Position numbers and translations under genes: made by a program. The notes beneath the pieces were generated by a model. The model worked only from the letters and a program-made list of their open reading frames with translations. It did no database searches and had not been told where the DNA came from. A DNA stretch of 20,997 nucleotides, from IMG/VR virus record IMGVR_UViG_3300044681_001062, positions 1-20,997 of that record, one strand, 5' to 3'. Shown here in pieces: positions 5,424-20,111 of the stretch (positions are counted from its first letter, which is position 1; each line of letters starts with the position of its first letter). Origin of the DNA: a virus.

Positions 5424-6527
5424 ATGGTTGAGAAAGTAGCAGATCCGCGTCGTGTCAAGAAAGCTGATACTGAGCCTGAGGTTAGCGCAGTAAACTTTGA
5501 GCAGGCTGGTTATACAACTGCTCTGATGCGAGCCCTGACCTGGTATCATGCTGAGAATGATCGCAAGACTGCTGCCATGTTTATTCGTAGTTACATCAAG
5601 GCCAAGCGTCCAGCCGACCTTCGAGTTTTTGATAGCTGCAAAGGTTTCATGTCACCAACCTATGGCTACATGGCCAGGCTTGTTATGCGTGGCGCTGAAC
5701 TGGCTCCACATCATCTAGAAAATCTAAATGCCAGCATCACAGAATTCCTGGACAAGGAAAAGACCGTTGTTGAGGTTGTTGAACCTAAACCTCAGACAGC
5801 CAAGCCTAATATTCAGGCCGCCATGGATGCTAAAATTCGTGAATACATAGGCACACTAGAAGGTGCAGTTGATGACTATGTAAGCGAAGGAACCGAATTC
5901 AGCCTAGAGGCCGATCTCAGGGCCAAGGAAATTCCTCAGGCCTATGTTCCTAAAATTCAGGAATGGGCTCGTAAAAATCTGCAGCAATGGATCGAAATTC
6001 TCGAAGGAAAAGATGAGCAGCTGAACGAAGCCTATGCACACTATGGCAAGGTTGCACGTAAGAACGTGGCCAAGTTTTTCGGAGCCATGGTCGAGGATTG
6101 CCAAAAGTATGGTGCCTTCAAGAAAGCAAATCGTAAACCCAGACCCAAGAAAGTGAAGCCACCAACAGTTCAGGTCGCCAAGCTTCAGTATCTCAAGGAA
6201 TTTCCTGAGCTCGGTCTGGTAAGCGTGAACCCCGTAGAGATTATTGGAGCCAGCCAGGTCTGGATCTATAATACCAAGAACAAAAGAGTGAGCCTGTATC
6301 GTACAGAAAGCGGAGCTGGCCTGCAGTGTAAAGGTACCAGACTACAGAACTACGATCCTGAAATCTGCGATCAGCGTACTCTTAGAAAACCTGGTCCCAT
6401 GACTCAGGAGATTCTGCAGGCTGGTAAAGTGCAGCTTCGAAAGTTCATGGAATCGCTATCAACTAAATCAAGCACTCCCAATGGCATCGTTAACGGAGAG
6501 TGTGTTATCCTGAGGGTTGTAAAATGA
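5424..6527 (+). CDS. conserved phage protein of unknown function
   Basis: A 367-residue protein, the largest in this part of the window. Recognisable blocks are LMRALTWYHAENDRK near the N-terminus, YGYMARLVMRG, a long helical middle (about residues 125-235), a basic patch (KKANRKPRPKKVKPP) and the C-terminal block LQYLKEFPELGLVSVNP, then SQVWIYNTKNKRVSLY, LQCKGTRLQNYDP and TLRKPGPM. I recall this layout, including the 'KEF-EL-L' and 'VWxxNTKxRxLxxY' parts, from conserved hypothetical proteins of aquatic T4-like phages. No function is known to me. It overlaps RNase H by 4 bases. Confidence 0.85.
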   Translation: MVEKVADPRRVKKADTEPEVSAVNFEQAGYTTALMRALTWYHAENDRKTAAMFIRSYIKAKRPADLRVFDSCKGFMSPTYGYMARLVMRGAELAPHHLENLNASITEFLDKEKTVVEVVEPKPQTAKPNIQAAMDAKIREYIGTLEGAVDDYVSEGTEFSLEADLRAKEIPQAYVPKIQEWARKNLQQWIEILEGKDEQLNEAYAHYGKVARKNVAKFFGAMVEDCQKYGAFKKANRKPRPKKVKPPTVQVAKLQYLKEFPELGLVSVNPVEIIGASQVWIYNTKNKRVSLYRTESGAGLQCKGTRLQNYDPEICDQRTLRKPGPMTQEILQAGKVQLRKFMESLSTKSSTPNGIVNGECVILRVVK

Positions 6528-7402
6528 TTGTTATTGATTACAGCCAGACCGCCATTAGCAACATCATGGTTGAACTTGGCGGTCGAACCGATGTTGAGAT
6601 CAATTTGCCGCTCATGCGTCACATGATCATAAACAGCATACGTGGCTACAAGAAAAAGTTTGGCTCCAAGTACGGCGACATGGTACTGGCCTGCGATAGT
6701 AAAAACTATTGGCGCAAGCAAATCTTTTCCTATTACAAGGCTCATCGTAAAAAGGACAGGGAAGAAAGCGGTCTGGATTGGAAGGCTATCTTTGAAGCAC
6801 TGGACACCATACGTTCAGAGATCCATAGATACTTTCCCTATAAGGTACTTTGGGTCGAGGAAGCCGAGGCTGACGACATCATTGCAGTACTGGCTAAATA
6901 CAGTCAGACCATAAGTTCAGGAAATCCGTTATTCGATGAGCCTGCGCCATTTCTGATTGTAAGTGGTGATCATGATTTTGTCCAACTACAGAAATACGAA
7001 AATGTCAAACAGTTCTCACCGATTCAAAAGAAATTTATCACAGCAGACACAACGCCGCAGAGAGCTCTATTGGAACACATCATCCGCGGAGACAAAGGAG
7101 ACGGAATTCCAAACGTACTCAGTGCAGACGAAAGCATATACGAAAACATTCGGCAACGTCCAATTACTGCCAAAAAAATAGCTGAATGGTCAGCGCCAGA
7201 GAATAGACCCCAGGACCTGGAATTCCAGACACGCTGGGAACGTAATCAGCGTTTGGTGGATTTTGATTTTATCCCTGAACGTATTGAAACAAATATCATG
7301 AATGAATTCTTGTCACAGCCAAACAAAGATCGAAGTCAGTTGTTCGGATACTTTATTAGTCACAAGATGAAAAACATGATGGAAGTTATTGAGGAGTTCT
7401 GA
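6524..7402 (+). CDS. rnh: T4 RNase H-like 5'-3' exonuclease (FEN family)
   Basis: A 292-residue protein matching the T4 Rnh/FEN-1 family, which removes RNA primers during lagging-strand synthesis. Visible acidic metal-site residues: D5 (VIDYS), D58 in ACDSKNYWRKQIFSYYKAHRKK, the cluster EEAEADD (112-118), SGDHDF (D149, D151) and RGDKGDGIPN (D190, D193), the last being the DNA-binding helix-hairpin region. I chose the ATG at 6524, which overlaps the previous TGA, over upstream codons in frame. The length is close to T4 Rnh (about 305). It heads the conserved rnh-dsbA-33-59-32 order. Confidence 0.93.
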   Translation: MIVIDYSQTAISNIMVELGGRTDVEINLPLMRHMIINSIRGYKKKFGSKYGDMVLACDSKNYWRKQIFSYYKAHRKKDREESGLDWKAIFEALDTIRSEIHRYFPYKVLWVEEAEADDIIAVLAKYSQTISSGNPLFDEPAPFLIVSGDHDFVQLQKYENVKQFSPIQKKFITADTTPQRALLEHIIRGDKGDGIPNVLSADESIYENIRQRPITAKKIAEWSAPENRPQDLEFQTRWERNQRLVDFDFIPERIETNIMNEFLSQPNKDRSQLFGYFISHKMKNMMEVIEEF

Positions 7403-12903: not shown

Positions 12904-13163
12904 TGGCAAACATAAGCAATGTTGTTTCAATATTTCCAGAACGGCATCTGGCCATTAGGTTAGAGACCGATGAAGAAATCTTTGTGACCATTGCCAGCAT
13001 CAATGTCTTTGGAGAACGTAAAGTTTCTGAACGCCGTCTCTGGGAACTAGAACCAGATTATGTTATTGCCTGTTTGCAGGCTGGCCTGACCTCAGAATTG
13101 TTTAGTAACCGTGCCAGGGTGATCTGTAAACAGATTGTTGATAAATATCAGGAGCAATCGTGA
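12903..13163 (+). CDS. hypothetical protein
   Basis: An 86-residue protein starting at an ATG that overlaps the preceding TGA (TGATG). Beta-rich start (NVVSIFPERHLAIRLETDEEIFVTIASINVFG), then RKVSERRLWELEPDYVIACLQ and a helical end. It resembles a small DNA- or protein-binding domain, but no family is recognised. AGGAGC near its 3' end is the ribosome-binding site for the UV endonuclease gene. Confidence 0.65.
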   Translation: MANISNVVSIFPERHLAIRLETDEEIFVTIASINVFGERKVSERRLWELEPDYVIACLQAGLTSELFSNRARVICKQIVDKYQEQS

Positions 13164-14176
13164 AAGTTGGATTCTGTTGCAAATGGATTGACAATGAAGC
13201 CCAGATTGATGGATTCAAACCTCGGGATGCGGCTAAACTGTTGAATACCAGAGTCACTACGGTTGCCTGGTTGGGCCGACAAACGCGTGAGGTTGCCGAG
13301 CAACGTCTCTGGGACCTCATGGTTCATAACATAGAAAGCATCAGGCTTTTGGTTGAAAGGGTAGGTAGCTTACATGAGCGTCTTAGGATGGTTCGTCTTG
13401 GTAGTGATATCTTGCCTGTTTATACCGAGCCTACCTGGAGTTATTTTTGGCGTCGTGCTGACGTTAGGGCTTATTGTGAGCGCCACTTTGCAGTTGTTGG
13501 TGATCTGGCTCGTCGCCTTGGGGTACGTCTTAGTTTCCATCCTGGACAATTTTGTGTTCTGGCTTCAGAAAACCCTAACATAGTAAACCGTAGCATAGAG
13601 GAGTTTGAGTATCATGCAGATATGGCCCGTTGGATGGGGTACGGAAAAACGTATCAAGACTTCAAAATCAATGTCCACATCGCGGGTAGAGCCGGTCCAG
13701 CCGGTATCAAAGATGTCCTTCCGCGACTATCTACAGAAGCAAGAAATACCATCACAATCGAAAACGACGAAACCAGGTGGGGTCTCGATTCGAGCCTAGA
13801 GCTCGTCAACCATTGTGCTTTGGTTTTGGACATTCATCATCACTTCATAAGAACTGGCGAGTACATAGCCTCCATGGATGACCGTGTAAAACGAGTCATA
13901 GATAGCTGGAGGGGCGTAAGGCCAGTGATCCATTACAGCCAGAGCCCTGAGAGTGTGCTAACGGGCCACAAACCAGAGATTCTACCTAACATGACTCTGT
14001 TGCTTGAGAACGGTCATAAGAAAGGTAAGCTTCGAGCCCATAGCAATTTTTACTGGAATGAAGCCTGTAATCTTTGGGCCAGTACTTTTAGCTCAAACTT
14101 TGACATACAATGTGAAAGTAAAGCCAAGAATCTGGCTAGTTTCAGGTTTGCCAAAACCCTAGGAATAGATATATAA
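13160..14176 (+). CDS. uvdE: UV-damage endonuclease (UvdE/UVDE family)
   Basis: A 338-residue TIM-barrel endonuclease. It starts at GTG 13160, inside GTGA overlap with the previous stop, with CAGGAGC upstream. Family motifs visible: MKVGFCCKW at the start, LNTRVTTVAWLGRQ, RLSFHPGQFCVLAS (HPGQF 127-131), KINVHIAGRAG (171-), ITIENDETRWG (ENDE 201-204), DIHHHF (224-229) and PVIHYSQSP (256-263), which together supply the His/Glu/Asp metal ligands. UVDE nicks DNA 5' to UV photoproducts and starts an excision repair route independent of UvrABC, using downstream ligase and exonuclease. Both are encoded nearby here. T4 itself uses DenV for this purpose. Confidence 0.92.
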   Translation: MKVGFCCKWIDNEAQIDGFKPRDAAKLLNTRVTTVAWLGRQTREVAEQRLWDLMVHNIESIRLLVERVGSLHERLRMVRLGSDILPVYTEPTWSYFWRRADVRAYCERHFAVVGDLARRLGVRLSFHPGQFCVLASENPNIVNRSIEEFEYHADMARWMGYGKTYQDFKINVHIAGRAGPAGIKDVLPRLSTEARNTITIENDETRWGLDSSLELVNHCALVLDIHHHFIRTGEYIASMDDRVKRVIDSWRGVRPVIHYSQSPESVLTGHKPEILPNMTLLLENGHKKGKLRAHSNFYWNEACNLWASTFSSNFDIQCESKAKNLASFRFAKTLGIDI

Positions 14177-14487: not shown

Positions 14488-14502
14488 GGACCTATGCCCT
14501 CT
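14465..14502 (+). promoter_or_regulatory. hairpin covering the phoH ribosome-binding site and start codon
   Basis: Outer stem GAGGGCAT (14466-14473) with ATGCCCTC (14494-14501), extendable by a G-U pair; inner stem GTCC (14474-14477) with GGAC (14488-14491); 2-base bulge CT (14492-14493); loop 14478-14487. The ribosome-binding site GAGGA (14486-14490) is mostly in the inner stem and the phoH ATG (14494-14496) is in the outer stem, so translation should be blocked unless the stem is opened. Confidence 0.65.
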
Positions 14503-15264
14503 AAAAAAATATCGAGGGCTTACATGGCAAGAAAAGCAGAAAATCTACAGGTAAGTAGAAACAACGCAGTCACTATAACAAACAAACTGAAACTGCGCAT
14601 CGATGACCTGCAGACTAGATCGCCATTGACAGAAAACCAGAGGAGATTTTTTGAGCTATACGAAGATAGCGATATCATGCTACTGCATGGTGTTGCAGGA
14701 ACAGGAAAAAGTTATATTGCATTATACAAGGCCTTAGAGGAGGTTCTGGATCGTAGTACAGTTTTCAATCAGGTAGTCATAGTTCGAAGTGCAGTACCCA
14801 GTCGTGACATCGGTCATCTTCCAGGTGACGAAAGAGAAAAGACTGAGGTATATCAACAGCCCTATGTTGAGATCTGCTCAGATCTTTTTGGCCGTCATGA
14901 TGCCTTTCAGAGGCTCAATGAACAGGGAGCCATAAAATTCATGATTACCAGTTTTGTTCGAGGCATCACACTAGACAATAGCATCATCATTGTCGACGAA
15001 GCTCAGAACATGACAGACATGGAACTCAATTCAATCATAACACGCGTTGGCGAAAGAAGCAAAATTATTTTTTGCGGTGACTTTAGACAGACAGATTTAT
15101 ATAAAAGAAATGACATGTCTGGTCTGAAGAAATTCATGGTCATTGCTGATAGTATGCCCAGCTTTGATACCATTGAATTCGGCGTTGATGATATCGTTCG
15201 TTCTGATATTGTCAAGGAATATATTATCGCTCGTATGCGTTACGAAGAACAGTACGGAGCATAA
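14494..15264 (+). CDS. phoH: PhoH-like P-loop ATPase
   Basis: A 256-residue protein. Walker A GVAGTGKS (66-73) follows LTENQRRFFELYEDSDIMLLH; Walker B is SIIIVDEAQNM (163-173); IIFCGDFRQTD is the sensor region, and VVIVRSAVPSRDIGHLPGD is the characteristic PhoH/helicase-like block. The PhoH family is cytoplasmic, ATP-binding and related to superfamily 1 helicase cores; it is frequent in marine phages, with a role in phosphate stress proposed but not proven. About 40 N-terminal residues are basic. Translation is probably controlled by the start-site hairpin. The next gene abuts its TAA. Confidence 0.9.
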   Translation: MPSKKISRAYMARKAENLQVSRNNAVTITNKLKLRIDDLQTRSPLTENQRRFFELYEDSDIMLLHGVAGTGKSYIALYKALEEVLDRSTVFNQVVIVRSAVPSRDIGHLPGDEREKTEVYQQPYVEICSDLFGRHDAFQRLNEQGAIKFMITSFVRGITLDNSIIIVDEAQNMTDMELNSIITRVGERSKIIFCGDFRQTDLYKRNDMSGLKKFMVIADSMPSFDTIEFGVDDIVRSDIVKEYIIARMRYEEQYGA

Positions 15265-15904: not shown

Positions 15905-16570
15905 ATGATCTTTCAGCATAATTGGTTACCCAAGATCGAAATGAAAAGGGTAACAGATGAACAAACAGGAAAAAGACTCTATACCACACCCGAAGGAAAA
16001 CGCTATCCTTCGGTTACTACTGTACTGAGTCAGCATAGCGCAGCAGGCATACAGGCCTGGCGTGCTCGTGTAGGCGAAGCCGAGGCCAATCGAATCAGCA
16101 GTTATGCTGCAAAACGTGGGACTCGTATTCATGCACTCTGCGAATCTTTTCTAAAAAACGAACCCGTGGTCATAGAAAATCCCGTGCACAGGGAAATGTT
16201 TGAAAGTCTGAAACCTGAGCTTGAAAAGATTGATAATGTCCGAGCTCTGGAACATGGGCTATACAGTAACTATCTAAGACTGGCTGGAACAGTGGACTGT
16301 ATTGCAGATTATCGTGGAAGGCCCTGCGTAATTGATTTCAAGACTAGTCGTAAACTAAAAAACAGAGATCAGATCCAGAGCTACTTCATGCAAACCAGTG
16401 CCTATGCCATCATGGCCGAGGAGCGTCATGGACTGAGCATACCCTGGATGGTTATCCTAATCATGGTTGATGACTCTGCTCCACAGGTATTCATAGAACA
16501 TCGGGACGATTGGGCAGATTGTCTGCTAGAGTATCGTGACATGTATGAGACAGGACTGAAACCGTTTTGA
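15905..16570 (+). CDS. RecB-like PD-(D/E)XK exonuclease
   Basis: A 221-residue protein. I chose the ATG at 15905, which follows the previous stop by 4 bases; the frame is open upstream but overlaps the endolysin gene. Motifs of the RecB/Cas4/MGME1-type nuclease family: RGTRIHALCE (His76), LEHGLYSNYLRLAGTVDCIAD (Glu116, Asp131), VIDFKTSRK (Asp144, Lys146) and the QSYFMQTSAYAIM helix with Gln. It starts PSVTTVLS, also typical of this phage group. It probably degrades or resects DNA in recombination or repair, together with ligase and UV endonuclease. No iron-sulfur cysteine cluster is visible. Confidence 0.88.
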   Translation: MIFQHNWLPKIEMKRVTDEQTGKRLYTTPEGKRYPSVTTVLSQHSAAGIQAWRARVGEAEANRISSYAAKRGTRIHALCESFLKNEPVVIENPVHREMFESLKPELEKIDNVRALEHGLYSNYLRLAGTVDCIADYRGRPCVIDFKTSRKLKNRDQIQSYFMQTSAYAIMAEERHGLSIPWMVILIMVDDSAPQVFIEHRDDWADCLLEYRDMYETGLKPF

Positions 16571-16841: not shown

Positions 16842-16920
16842 TCCAGGAGGAAACAAGAATACAACCATGGGATTCATGCTTTTCTTAATCCTTATACTCA
16901 TCGCAGTTTTTGTAATCTGA
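16834..16920 (+). CDS. tiny membrane protein
   Basis: A 28-residue peptide; residues 12-28 are hydrophobic (MGFMLFLILILIAVFVI). If it starts at 16834 it overlaps the previous gene by 8 bases. The in-frame ATG at 16867 would give only 17 residues and lies 16 bases after AGGAGG (16845-16850), too far for a good ribosome-binding site. The start is uncertain, and the ORF ends right before the tmRNA acceptor region. Confidence 0.4.
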   Translation: MVDPGGNKNTTMGFMLFLILILIAVFVI

Positions 16921-16997
16921 TATACATATTGATATAGTTGTATGAAGCAAGCAGAAAAGTGCTGCGGACGCGGGTTCGACTCCCGCCTGGTCCACCA

Positions 16998-17063
16998 AAA
17001 GCATTCTGATGTAGGTCTTGGTCGTTACCCGCATTGAGCAAAAACGGCGTCCCAGAATGCTTT
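16998..17063 (+). other. removable intervening segment of the permuted tmRNA
   Basis: Between the CCA end and the coding piece an 11-bp perfect inverted repeat, AAAGCATTCTG (16998-17008) with CAGAATGCTTT (17053-17063), encloses a 44-base loop; one more pair is possible with A16997 and T17064. It would hold the two tRNA halves together in the precursor and be cut out by RNase P before G17068 and by 3' trimming to CCA, as in other permuted tmRNAs. Confidence 0.85.
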
Positions 17064-17155
17064 TGATGGGCCAGATCTGGTTTCGACGGGGTAACAAGTA
17101 AGTGAGTGGACAACTCGATAGGCGAAGGACGTAATCCTAGCAAAAGCAAATAGAC

Positions 17156-17188
17156 GCAAACGAAGAAGTTTTTGCACTAGCTGCCTAA
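17156..17188 (+). other. tmRNA proteolysis-tag reading frame (ANEEVFALAA)
   Basis: AATAGAC directly precedes the resume codon GCA (17156-17158), close to the E. coli AATAGTC-GCA. The codons give A-N-E-E-V-F-A-L-A-A and then TAA (17186-17188). The end ALAA matches the tag recognised by ClpXP and ClpAP in proteobacteria, and the start AN..E. is like E. coli ANDENYALAA. The tag resembles beta- and gammaproteobacterial forms more than the longer alphaproteobacterial ones; that comparison is from memory. Confidence 0.9.
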
Positions 17189-17269
17189 TCATAGGTAAGC
17201 AGGAGTTCTGGAGGTGTACTTGGCAACAGAAACACCTCCACCGTATACCATAACTTCTTTTAGACCAGC

Positions 17270-17644
17270 ATGGATATAGTGTCAATTATTGGTTGGATTA
17301 TGTCAGGAACGATATGGTCCATGCTATTCATACTTTGGTTTCTCTGGCTTCTCTATGTTGCCATGATGAACATCAAAAGAGCCGTTGGCGACGATGTTGG
17401 GTCTTTGCCCTGGCAGGCTAAGTTACTGGTCTACCCAACAAGTGTTCTTTTTGACATTGTTGAGTTTATTGCCAATGTCATAGTCTGCACCATTATATTC
17501 CTGGATTGGCCCAGGGAGGTTACAGTCAGTGATCGGCTTCGAAGATATGCTGTCGAACCAAACAAAGCTGGGTGGCGCATGGTATTAGTAGATTTTGTCA
17601 GGCCCATGTTGGATCCATTTGATCCTGAAGGACCTCATATATAA
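17270..17644 (+). CDS. phage membrane protein of unknown function
   Basis: A 124-residue protein with two hydrophobic regions: about residues 3-33 (IVSIIGWIMSGTIWSMLFILWFLWLLYVAM) and 62-82 (DIVEFIANVIVCTIIFLDWP). The C-terminal block REVTVSDRLRRY and the ending LDPFDPEGPHI resemble a phage membrane family with a conserved 'TxxxRLxxY...DPxGxH' ending that I have seen without known function. No ribosome-binding site precedes the ATG, which lies a few bases after the tmRNA coding piece, so its translation may depend on how the tmRNA precursor is processed. Confidence 0.75.
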   Translation: MDIVSIIGWIMSGTIWSMLFILWFLWLLYVAMMNIKRAVGDDVGSLPWQAKLLVYPTSVLFDIVEFIANVIVCTIIFLDWPREVTVSDRLRRYAVEPNKAGWRMVLVDFVRPMLDPFDPEGPHI

Positions 17645-19218: not shown

Positions 19219-19335
19219 ATGTCTAAATTCAATCGACCCTTCTGGGAGATTCTTATAATATGGTGTATAGTAACACTAGGGTGGTTTGTGGTACTATATT
19301 TGATCAAACCTTTTACAATATGTCATAGTTGCTAA
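19219..19335 (+). CDS. tiny single-pass membrane protein
   Basis: A 38-residue peptide with one hydrophobic span (about residues 8-29, FWEILIIWCIVTLGWFVVLYLI) and two cysteines in the tail (TICHSC). No ribosome-binding site is visible. Its TAA overlaps the gene 59 ATG, which would couple the two. It fills the gap between genes 33 and 59. Function unknown. Confidence 0.5.
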   Translation: MSKFNRPFWEILIIWCIVTLGWFVVLYLIKPFTICHSC

Positions 19336-20111
19336 TGGATTCATTCCAAGTTTATCGTTATTACCTGGCTCTAAAATTACACTTCACAACCGACAACTAT
19401 AACGTATTCGAACACAAGGGACGTGTTCGTTGTAGTCGTCGTACCTTTGAAGCTCGTAAAGATCTGTATTCCATAGAAAAGCTGGCCAAGAAATACAGCG
19501 AGGACCAGATTGTGAATTTTCTGGTTGCTAACTTTGTATCAGGTTCACACTGGGGTGGATTATTTGACGAGTCAGCCAATGAGGTTTATCTTCGCTGGCA
19601 AGGCCGTCAGGAAAAGCTAACCTATCTGTTTACCAATGATTGCGATAACCTGGCCGAATATAGTTCTGATTGGCATGAAATAACCAGCATTGAAAACACC
19701 ACTCATCCATATATACTAAAGAGTTACCTGGGCGGGCATCTGAGTCTGGAGACATTGGCCATACTGAATAAGATTACGGATTCCAGTGTTACTAATCTGA
19801 GCATAGCAGACACCATTCTCTGGCCTGATATACGCAGACTGATACTAAAGTATCAACCGTTTCTAAAGATAAAAAATGGACGCTTCACAGAAGTTTTTAG
19901 AGCACGATTTAGATATGAACAGCGAGAGGATTCGAACACTGGAGGAAACAGTGGCGGATCTACAGTACCGTCTGAACGAACAGAACGACCAGATCATGGG
20001 ACTGTTGCTGAGCCTAAGAGAGACGCAAAAGTATCTAATCAAGTCAGTAAAAAATCAGCAAGATCTTACCAAGCGAGTCAGTCAGTGGCCCTATCTGACT
20101 ATTTCCAATGA
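19335..20111 (+). CDS. 59: DNA helicase loader (T4 gp59-like)
   Basis: A 258-residue protein. I chose the ATG at 19335 overlapping the previous TAA. Residues 1-195 fit T4 gp59 (217 aa): FQVYRYYLALKLHF, SRRTFEARKDLYSIEKLAKKYSEDQIVNFLVANFVS, WGGLFDESANEVYLRWQGRQEKLTYLF, HPYILKSYLGGHLSLETLAILN and ILWPDIRRLILKYQPFL. gp59 loads the gp41 helicase onto gp32-coated forks. After about residue 196 comes a 62-residue polar tail (Ser, Thr, Arg, Lys, Gly-rich) absent from T4, which is encoded in the overlap with the coiled-coil gene and ends in LSDYFQ, a possible clamp-binding peptide. Confidence 0.88.
   Translation: MDSFQVYRYYLALKLHFTTDNYNVFEHKGRVRCSRRTFEARKDLYSIEKLAKKYSEDQIVNFLVANFVSGSHWGGLFDESANEVYLRWQGRQEKLTYLFTNDCDNLAEYSSDWHEITSIENTTHPYILKSYLGGHLSLETLAILNKITDSSVTNLSIADTILWPDIRRLILKYQPFLKIKNGRFTEVFRARFRYEQREDSNTGGNSGGSTVPSERTERPDHGTVAEPKRDAKVSNQVSKKSARSYQASQSVALSDYFQ

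Follow-up and report, generated by a model that had tools for sequence, protein, structure and literature searches.

Transfer-messenger RNA (tmRNA) frees jammed ribosomes and marks the unfinished protein for destruction. A two-piece tmRNA (ssrA) has been published for the Methylophilales phage Melnitz (Kyanoviridae; PMC9004378), and of the 133 unique phage tmRNAs counted in that paper, 53 are two-piece; it also discusses the integration-site question for Melnitz and reports a riboswitch in the same phage. Permuted genes are also carried by Stenotrophomonas phages (Menderavirus and similar) and by the Xanthomonas phages X1 and Rb1, where they are mostly unannotated (L002, L003, L004; L numbers are our labels for the sequences compared). 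Phage-borne permuted tmRNAs, for which the earlier note on the present DNA could not confirm a previous description, are thus already known. Among bacteria, the comparable form is the permuted tmRNA of betaproteobacteria (Rfam RF01850, beta_tmRNA; Rhodocyclales, Cupriavidus).

The window analysed here is a viral stretch of 20,997 nt (IMG/VR record IMGVR_UViG_3300044681_001062). Its sequence and those of its relatives make it very probable that it carries a beta-type permuted two-piece tmRNA gene, complete and functional, from a lineage long established in T4-like phages. Positions 16936–17188 matched Rfam RF04321 (tmRNA_permuted) over the full model (1–213) with 127.9 bits and E = 3.8e-25, against a curated cut-off of 47 bits, and the gene scored 110.8 bits with RF01850, for which the curated cut-off is 84 bits. 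ARAGORN independently called a permuted tmRNA (tmRNA*) at 16905–17279 with the tag ANEEVFALAA. Read from the sequence, the order of parts is acceptor piece, spacer, coding piece (Table 1). The claim of a phage-borne, circularly permuted tmRNA with all its main elements is therefore borne out by Rfam, ARAGORN and the sequence itself. Its proposed extent, 16936–17265, is somewhat long at the end, as the last recognisable element stops near 17239.

Table 1. Features of the tmRNA gene and of its neighbourhood in the window
Feature	Position	Strand	Basis or remark
PhoH-like protein gene	14494–15264	+	upstream of the tmRNA gene
PD-(D/E)XK exonuclease gene (phrog_298)	15941–16570	+	upstream neighbour, conserved in relatives and Melnitz
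Acceptor piece of permuted tmRNA	16936–16997	+	sequence, ARAGORN, Rfam
P2 5' strand, AGTTGT	16936–16941	+	within acceptor piece
T arm, GCGGG-TTCGACT-CCCGC	16970–16986	+	
Acceptor 3' strand, CTGGTCC	16987–16993	+	
Discriminator A	16994	+	
Encoded CCA	16995–16997	+	
Intervening spacer, 70 nt, predicted to be excised	16998–17067	+	sequence, folding
Coding piece	17068–17239	+	sequence, ARAGORN, Rfam; end is the last recognisable element, the mature 3' end being unreadable from DNA
Acceptor 5' strand, GGGCCAG	17068–17074	+	pairs with 16987–16993
D-loop region, GGTTTCGACGGGG	directly after acceptor 5' strand	+	
P2 3' strand, ACAACT	17110–17115	+	
Tag frame, ANEEVFALAA and stop TAA	17156–17188	+	ARAGORN
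Pseudoknot-like pairing	17205–17217 with 17227–17239	+	coding piece
T4 gp59-type DNA helicase loader gene (phrog_269)	19329–20111	+	downstream neighbour, also at the Melnitz locus

The two acceptor strands pair at 7/7 positions across the permutation, including the G3-U70 alanine mark (G17070-U16991), just as had been claimed. The ends of the spacer pair over 11 bp (16998–17008 with 17053–17063), and its last four bases are TGAT, a motif that most relatives also have ahead of the acceptor 5' strand. Cut sites are predicted after 16997 and before 17068. The 70-nt spacer holds a hairpin only, with no protein gene inside. An ATG in the acceptor piece opens a frame of ∼30 codons into the spacer (16943–17038), probably by chance. 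A scan beside the gene gave no convincing promoter or terminator, promoter-like matches being hardly commoner than in shuffles. No Melnitz-like riboswitch was found in the window, for which Rfam gave no other match at gathering score.

The locus is like that of Melnitz, also a T4-like phage, in which a permuted tmRNA gene lies with PhoH, the PD-(D/E)XK exonuclease, a late coactivator and the gp59-type loader. The Melnitz tag, ANDNYVPVDYALAA, also ends in LAA but is otherwise unlike that of the window, and its spacer is about 142 nt with an unannotated open reading frame (ORF), whereas the window spacer has none. The betaproteobacterial form shares piece order, P2, D-loop and tag start with the window gene. 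However, the 12 bacterial beta genes sampled have the acceptor GGGGGTG/CACCTCC rather than GGGCCAG/CTGGTCC, their tag is ANDERFALAA (with one miscalled exception), and their spacers are 3–36 nt, compared with 70 nt in the window and mostly 50–170 nt in phages. The Stenotrophomonas and Xanthomonas phage genes have an identical T stem and a long spacer but differ in acceptor sequence, tags and gene neighbourhood, those of Mendera and X1 lying near tRNA and ribonucleotide reductase genes.

The T4-like setting described in the earlier note is upheld by window genes for a T4 RNase H-type exonuclease, a gp59-type helicase loader, a T4-like ligase and a PhoH-like protein. Further neighbours encode an AAA ATPase, a GH19 endolysin and a cell wall hydrolase; the window also has genes for a UvdE-type UV endonuclease (13160–14176) and a GIY-YIG domain protein (2524–2847). 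No SmpB match was found among 23 phage records, so host SmpB would serve; the IMG/VR record is only a 20,997-base fragment, and smpB may lie elsewhere in the phage.

A strict DNA pattern spanning T arm to coding piece found only two distant matches in viral contigs, so relatives were gathered through the neighbouring PhoH and PD-(D/E)XK exonuclease proteins, yielding 59 distinct viral permuted tmRNAs. Credible permuted tmRNA calls lay 1.2–4.7 kb downstream of PhoH in 29/80 viral relatives, and Rfam recovered three more that ARAGORN had missed. One ARAGORN call, in L085 (tag VDNTTKTVYI), was discarded as not credible. G3-U70 is present in 59/59 relatives, the scan that defined them having demanded both this pair and 7/7 acceptor pairing. 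In a separate, looser parse of the ARAGORN calls, 6/7 pairs sufficed and G3-U70 was not demanded, yet all sequences that could be parsed had 7/7 pairs with G3-U70; thus, these features are not merely a product of the filter. Within the 59, acceptor positions 1, 2 and 7 are invariant, while positions 4, 5 and 6 change pair type yet always pair. Nine T-stem sequences occur, every one paired, and P2 takes forms such as AGTTGT/ACAACT, GATCGT/ACGATC and TGCTGT/ACAGCA in different phages. CCA is encoded in 56/59, and the terminal stems of 50 phage spacers average 10.2 bp, compared with 4.7 bp in shuffled sequences.

The tags of these relatives end in LAA in all except three cases (56/59; the others are IAA, IAA and MAA), and every ten-residue tag begins AN[DE] (44/44). 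The differences lie in the middle, giving 36 different tags among the 59. Conserved ends around a variable middle would be the pattern expected of a degradation tag in use and, taken with the compensating changes in the stems, point to long constraint on the gene across the 59 relatives.

Tags also appear to move between otherwise similar genes. L007 and L017 are 98% identical in the acceptor piece and 100% in the spacer, but only 58% in the tag and 49% in the part after it, and the window matches L014 in the acceptor piece (97%) but L007 in the tag (94%). More generally, the tmRNA genes of L007, L014, L017, L028 and the window are mosaics, with near-identical acceptor pieces and differing tags and 3' parts. 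This pattern looks like exchange of a tag module. The earlier note's idea that the phage might set the tag fits the data.

The tag ANEEVFALAA was searched in all codon forms against the genome contigs of a collection that represents each of 84,980 species by a single genome. It had no exact match in the bacterial genome contigs searched and was matched in six viral contigs. Host assignment by tag therefore failed; a species with the matching tag may simply be absent from the genome collection. A positive control, ANDE[R/Q/H]FALAA, gave at least 120 matches in the genome contigs, and among the matches listed the ARAGORN call was a standard one-piece gene at 93 loci and, at 11, a permuted gene bearing the control tag. 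As one-piece and permuted genes both carry it, the tag alone does not reveal the gene form.

In a tree of 70 tmRNAs (175 columns), for which the bacteria sampled were beta forms only, the 12 bacterial genes formed one clade (support 99/99) and the window fell in a phage-only group (100/98), most deep forks being weakly supported. Despite the gene passing the RF01850 cut-off, the tree thus gives no support for a position of the window inside the sampled bacterial beta clade. Sub-cut-off RF04321 matches occur in most genomes of the class, with 3/143 above the cut-off. The earlier suggestion that the tmRNA hints at the host lineage is not sustained, since the gene groups with phage tmRNAs, the sampled bacterial clade is separate, and the tag is in none of the bacterial contigs searched.

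The spacers of several relatives contain protein genes. In L080 (6470–7160), CCA and the acceptor 5' strand of a permuted tmRNA are separated by a 455-nt spacer that contains the whole of a 146-aa SNase-family gene (PF00565, 47.6 bits), and the acceptor still pairs 7/7 across it. The same arrangement is seen in L218–L222, L229 and L254, with spacers of 453–455 nt; L080 and L219 are a single contig, and several of the remaining SNase-bearing contigs come from other metagenomes. Between L080 and L229, the SNase gene gave dN = 0.088 and dS = 1.0. A conserved gene for a 52-aa protein lies inside the spacers of L048, L333/L407/L408, L411 and L413, with dN = 0.20 and dS = 3.3 (the latter near saturation) between L048 and L333, in both of which the TTATGAT motif just 5' of the acceptor 5' strand supplies the stop codon, TGA. 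An Oxidored-like domain (PF09791) is encoded in the spacers of L309 (4871–5071, E = 3e-12) and L313 (4461–4670, 5.5e-9), where the frame has no in-frame ATG, GTG or TTG within the spacer. An in-frame ATG is found in the tmRNA acceptor piece of both, from which the frame would cross the T arm. L091, with the same tag as the window, has a 57-codon ORF beginning in the spacer, and the evidence is weaker for additional spacer ORFs in L031, L056, L059, L305 and L022. The L035 spacer (6494–6609) has a T-arm-like stretch, at which ARAGORN calls no tRNA.

In 15 of the 37 spacers of at least 78 nt, a Shine-Dalgarno-like site and a start codon accompany an ORF that takes up at least 55% of the spacer; dinucleotide shuffles gave an expectation of 1.65. 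These 15 spacers are not independent and represent about eight families. Melnitz itself (L414, 14183–14323) has a conserved ORF (MFKWLSKTRLVVITRDYF...) in its tmRNA spacer; the annotated ssrA feature covers this ORF, for which no CDS is annotated. Similarly nested relatives occur in viral contigs, and dN was lower than dS in 7/7 comparisons (0.034/0.17 to 0.30/3.0); the passages of PMC9004378 that were searched make no mention of this ORF. We consider it likely that the spacer of this phage lineage is a slot for protein genes, one transcript giving both a two-piece tmRNA and a message, and that the tag is phage-specific and swapped as a module among related phages. The nested message would be released by spacer removal or translated before it. 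The Shine-Dalgarno-like sequence often lies within the terminal stem of the spacer, so processing and translation could be coupled. The window copy has the phage-specific tag and the long spacer, without a nested gene.

Loss clearly occurs in this lineage. Contigs with the SNase locus differ in this respect: some have both tmRNA pieces, L227 has the coding piece only, L230 has the acceptor piece only, and L223, L225, L226, L228 and L232 have neither. Either tmRNA piece can thus disappear without the other, and without loss of the protein gene. In L409 and L410 the tmRNA that surrounds the 52-aa gene is degraded, and a second acceptor piece with its spacer comes directly after it, an arrangement that suggests tandem duplication. 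Several relatives at a window-type locus have no detected tmRNA and, with others keeping half of it, the gene is evidently dispensable in some phages. These half-kept and degraded copies are what could be cited for reading the window gene as a decaying remnant, or as a recent capture from a host, that does nothing for the phage. However, the window copy is intact at all tested positions and the 59 relatives indicate long constraint, while its grouping with phage tmRNAs, apart from the sampled bacterial clade, argues against recent capture; we regard this explanation as unlikely.

Another possibility is that the RNA acts as a decoy, titrating SmpB and thereby inhibiting trans-translation in the host. 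This has a phage precedent in an RNA with the tRNA-like domain only, the tag-less tmRNA of mycobacteriophage DS6A, which has been proposed to act in this way (PMC4131195). The window gene has a full tag with the conserved LAA end, which would be superfluous to a decoy, making this very unlikely here. Finally, tmRNA genes are common integration sites, but an origin as the remains of an integration event at the ssrA gene of a host is hardly credible for a complete gene that lies in a T4-like replication-gene cluster, beside the exonuclease across many phages, with no integrase seen among the window genes examined.

Taking the window gene as a functional two-piece tmRNA, we infer that it acts on the ribosomes of the host together with the host's SmpB. 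By established tmRNA biology, from which the processing, charging and tagging steps are drawn, host RNase P would cut before G17068 and host tRNA 3'-end processing would cut after the CCA at 16997, removing the spacer. The two pieces would remain paired and be charged with alanine through G3-U70. Once bound to host SmpB, the charged two-piece RNA would enter stalled ribosomes, where it would add ANEEVFALAA, the LAA end making the tagged protein a target of host proteases such as ClpXP. The phage would probably use it for extra ribosome rescue and removal of truncated proteins during infection, and the phage-specific body of the tag may keep phage tagging apart from that of the host.

The window gene is an addition to the known phage permuted tmRNAs, a clear case where few ribosome-rescue RNAs of phages are on record, and its tag has so far been seen only in viruses. 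With such a tag, a phage-run stream of protein tagging during infection becomes directly testable. The relatives also expose a blind spot in annotation: ARAGORN missed the SNase-bearing tmRNAs with long spacers, and the Melnitz ORF lies unannotated inside the ssrA feature. More surprising than the window gene itself is the excised segment of its relatives as a site for protein genes. They suggest that the segment cut out of a structural RNA during processing holds protein genes under purifying selection, for which we found no report in the open-licence papers searched, and the nested case in the cultured phage Melnitz makes the order of cutting and translation testable at the bench.
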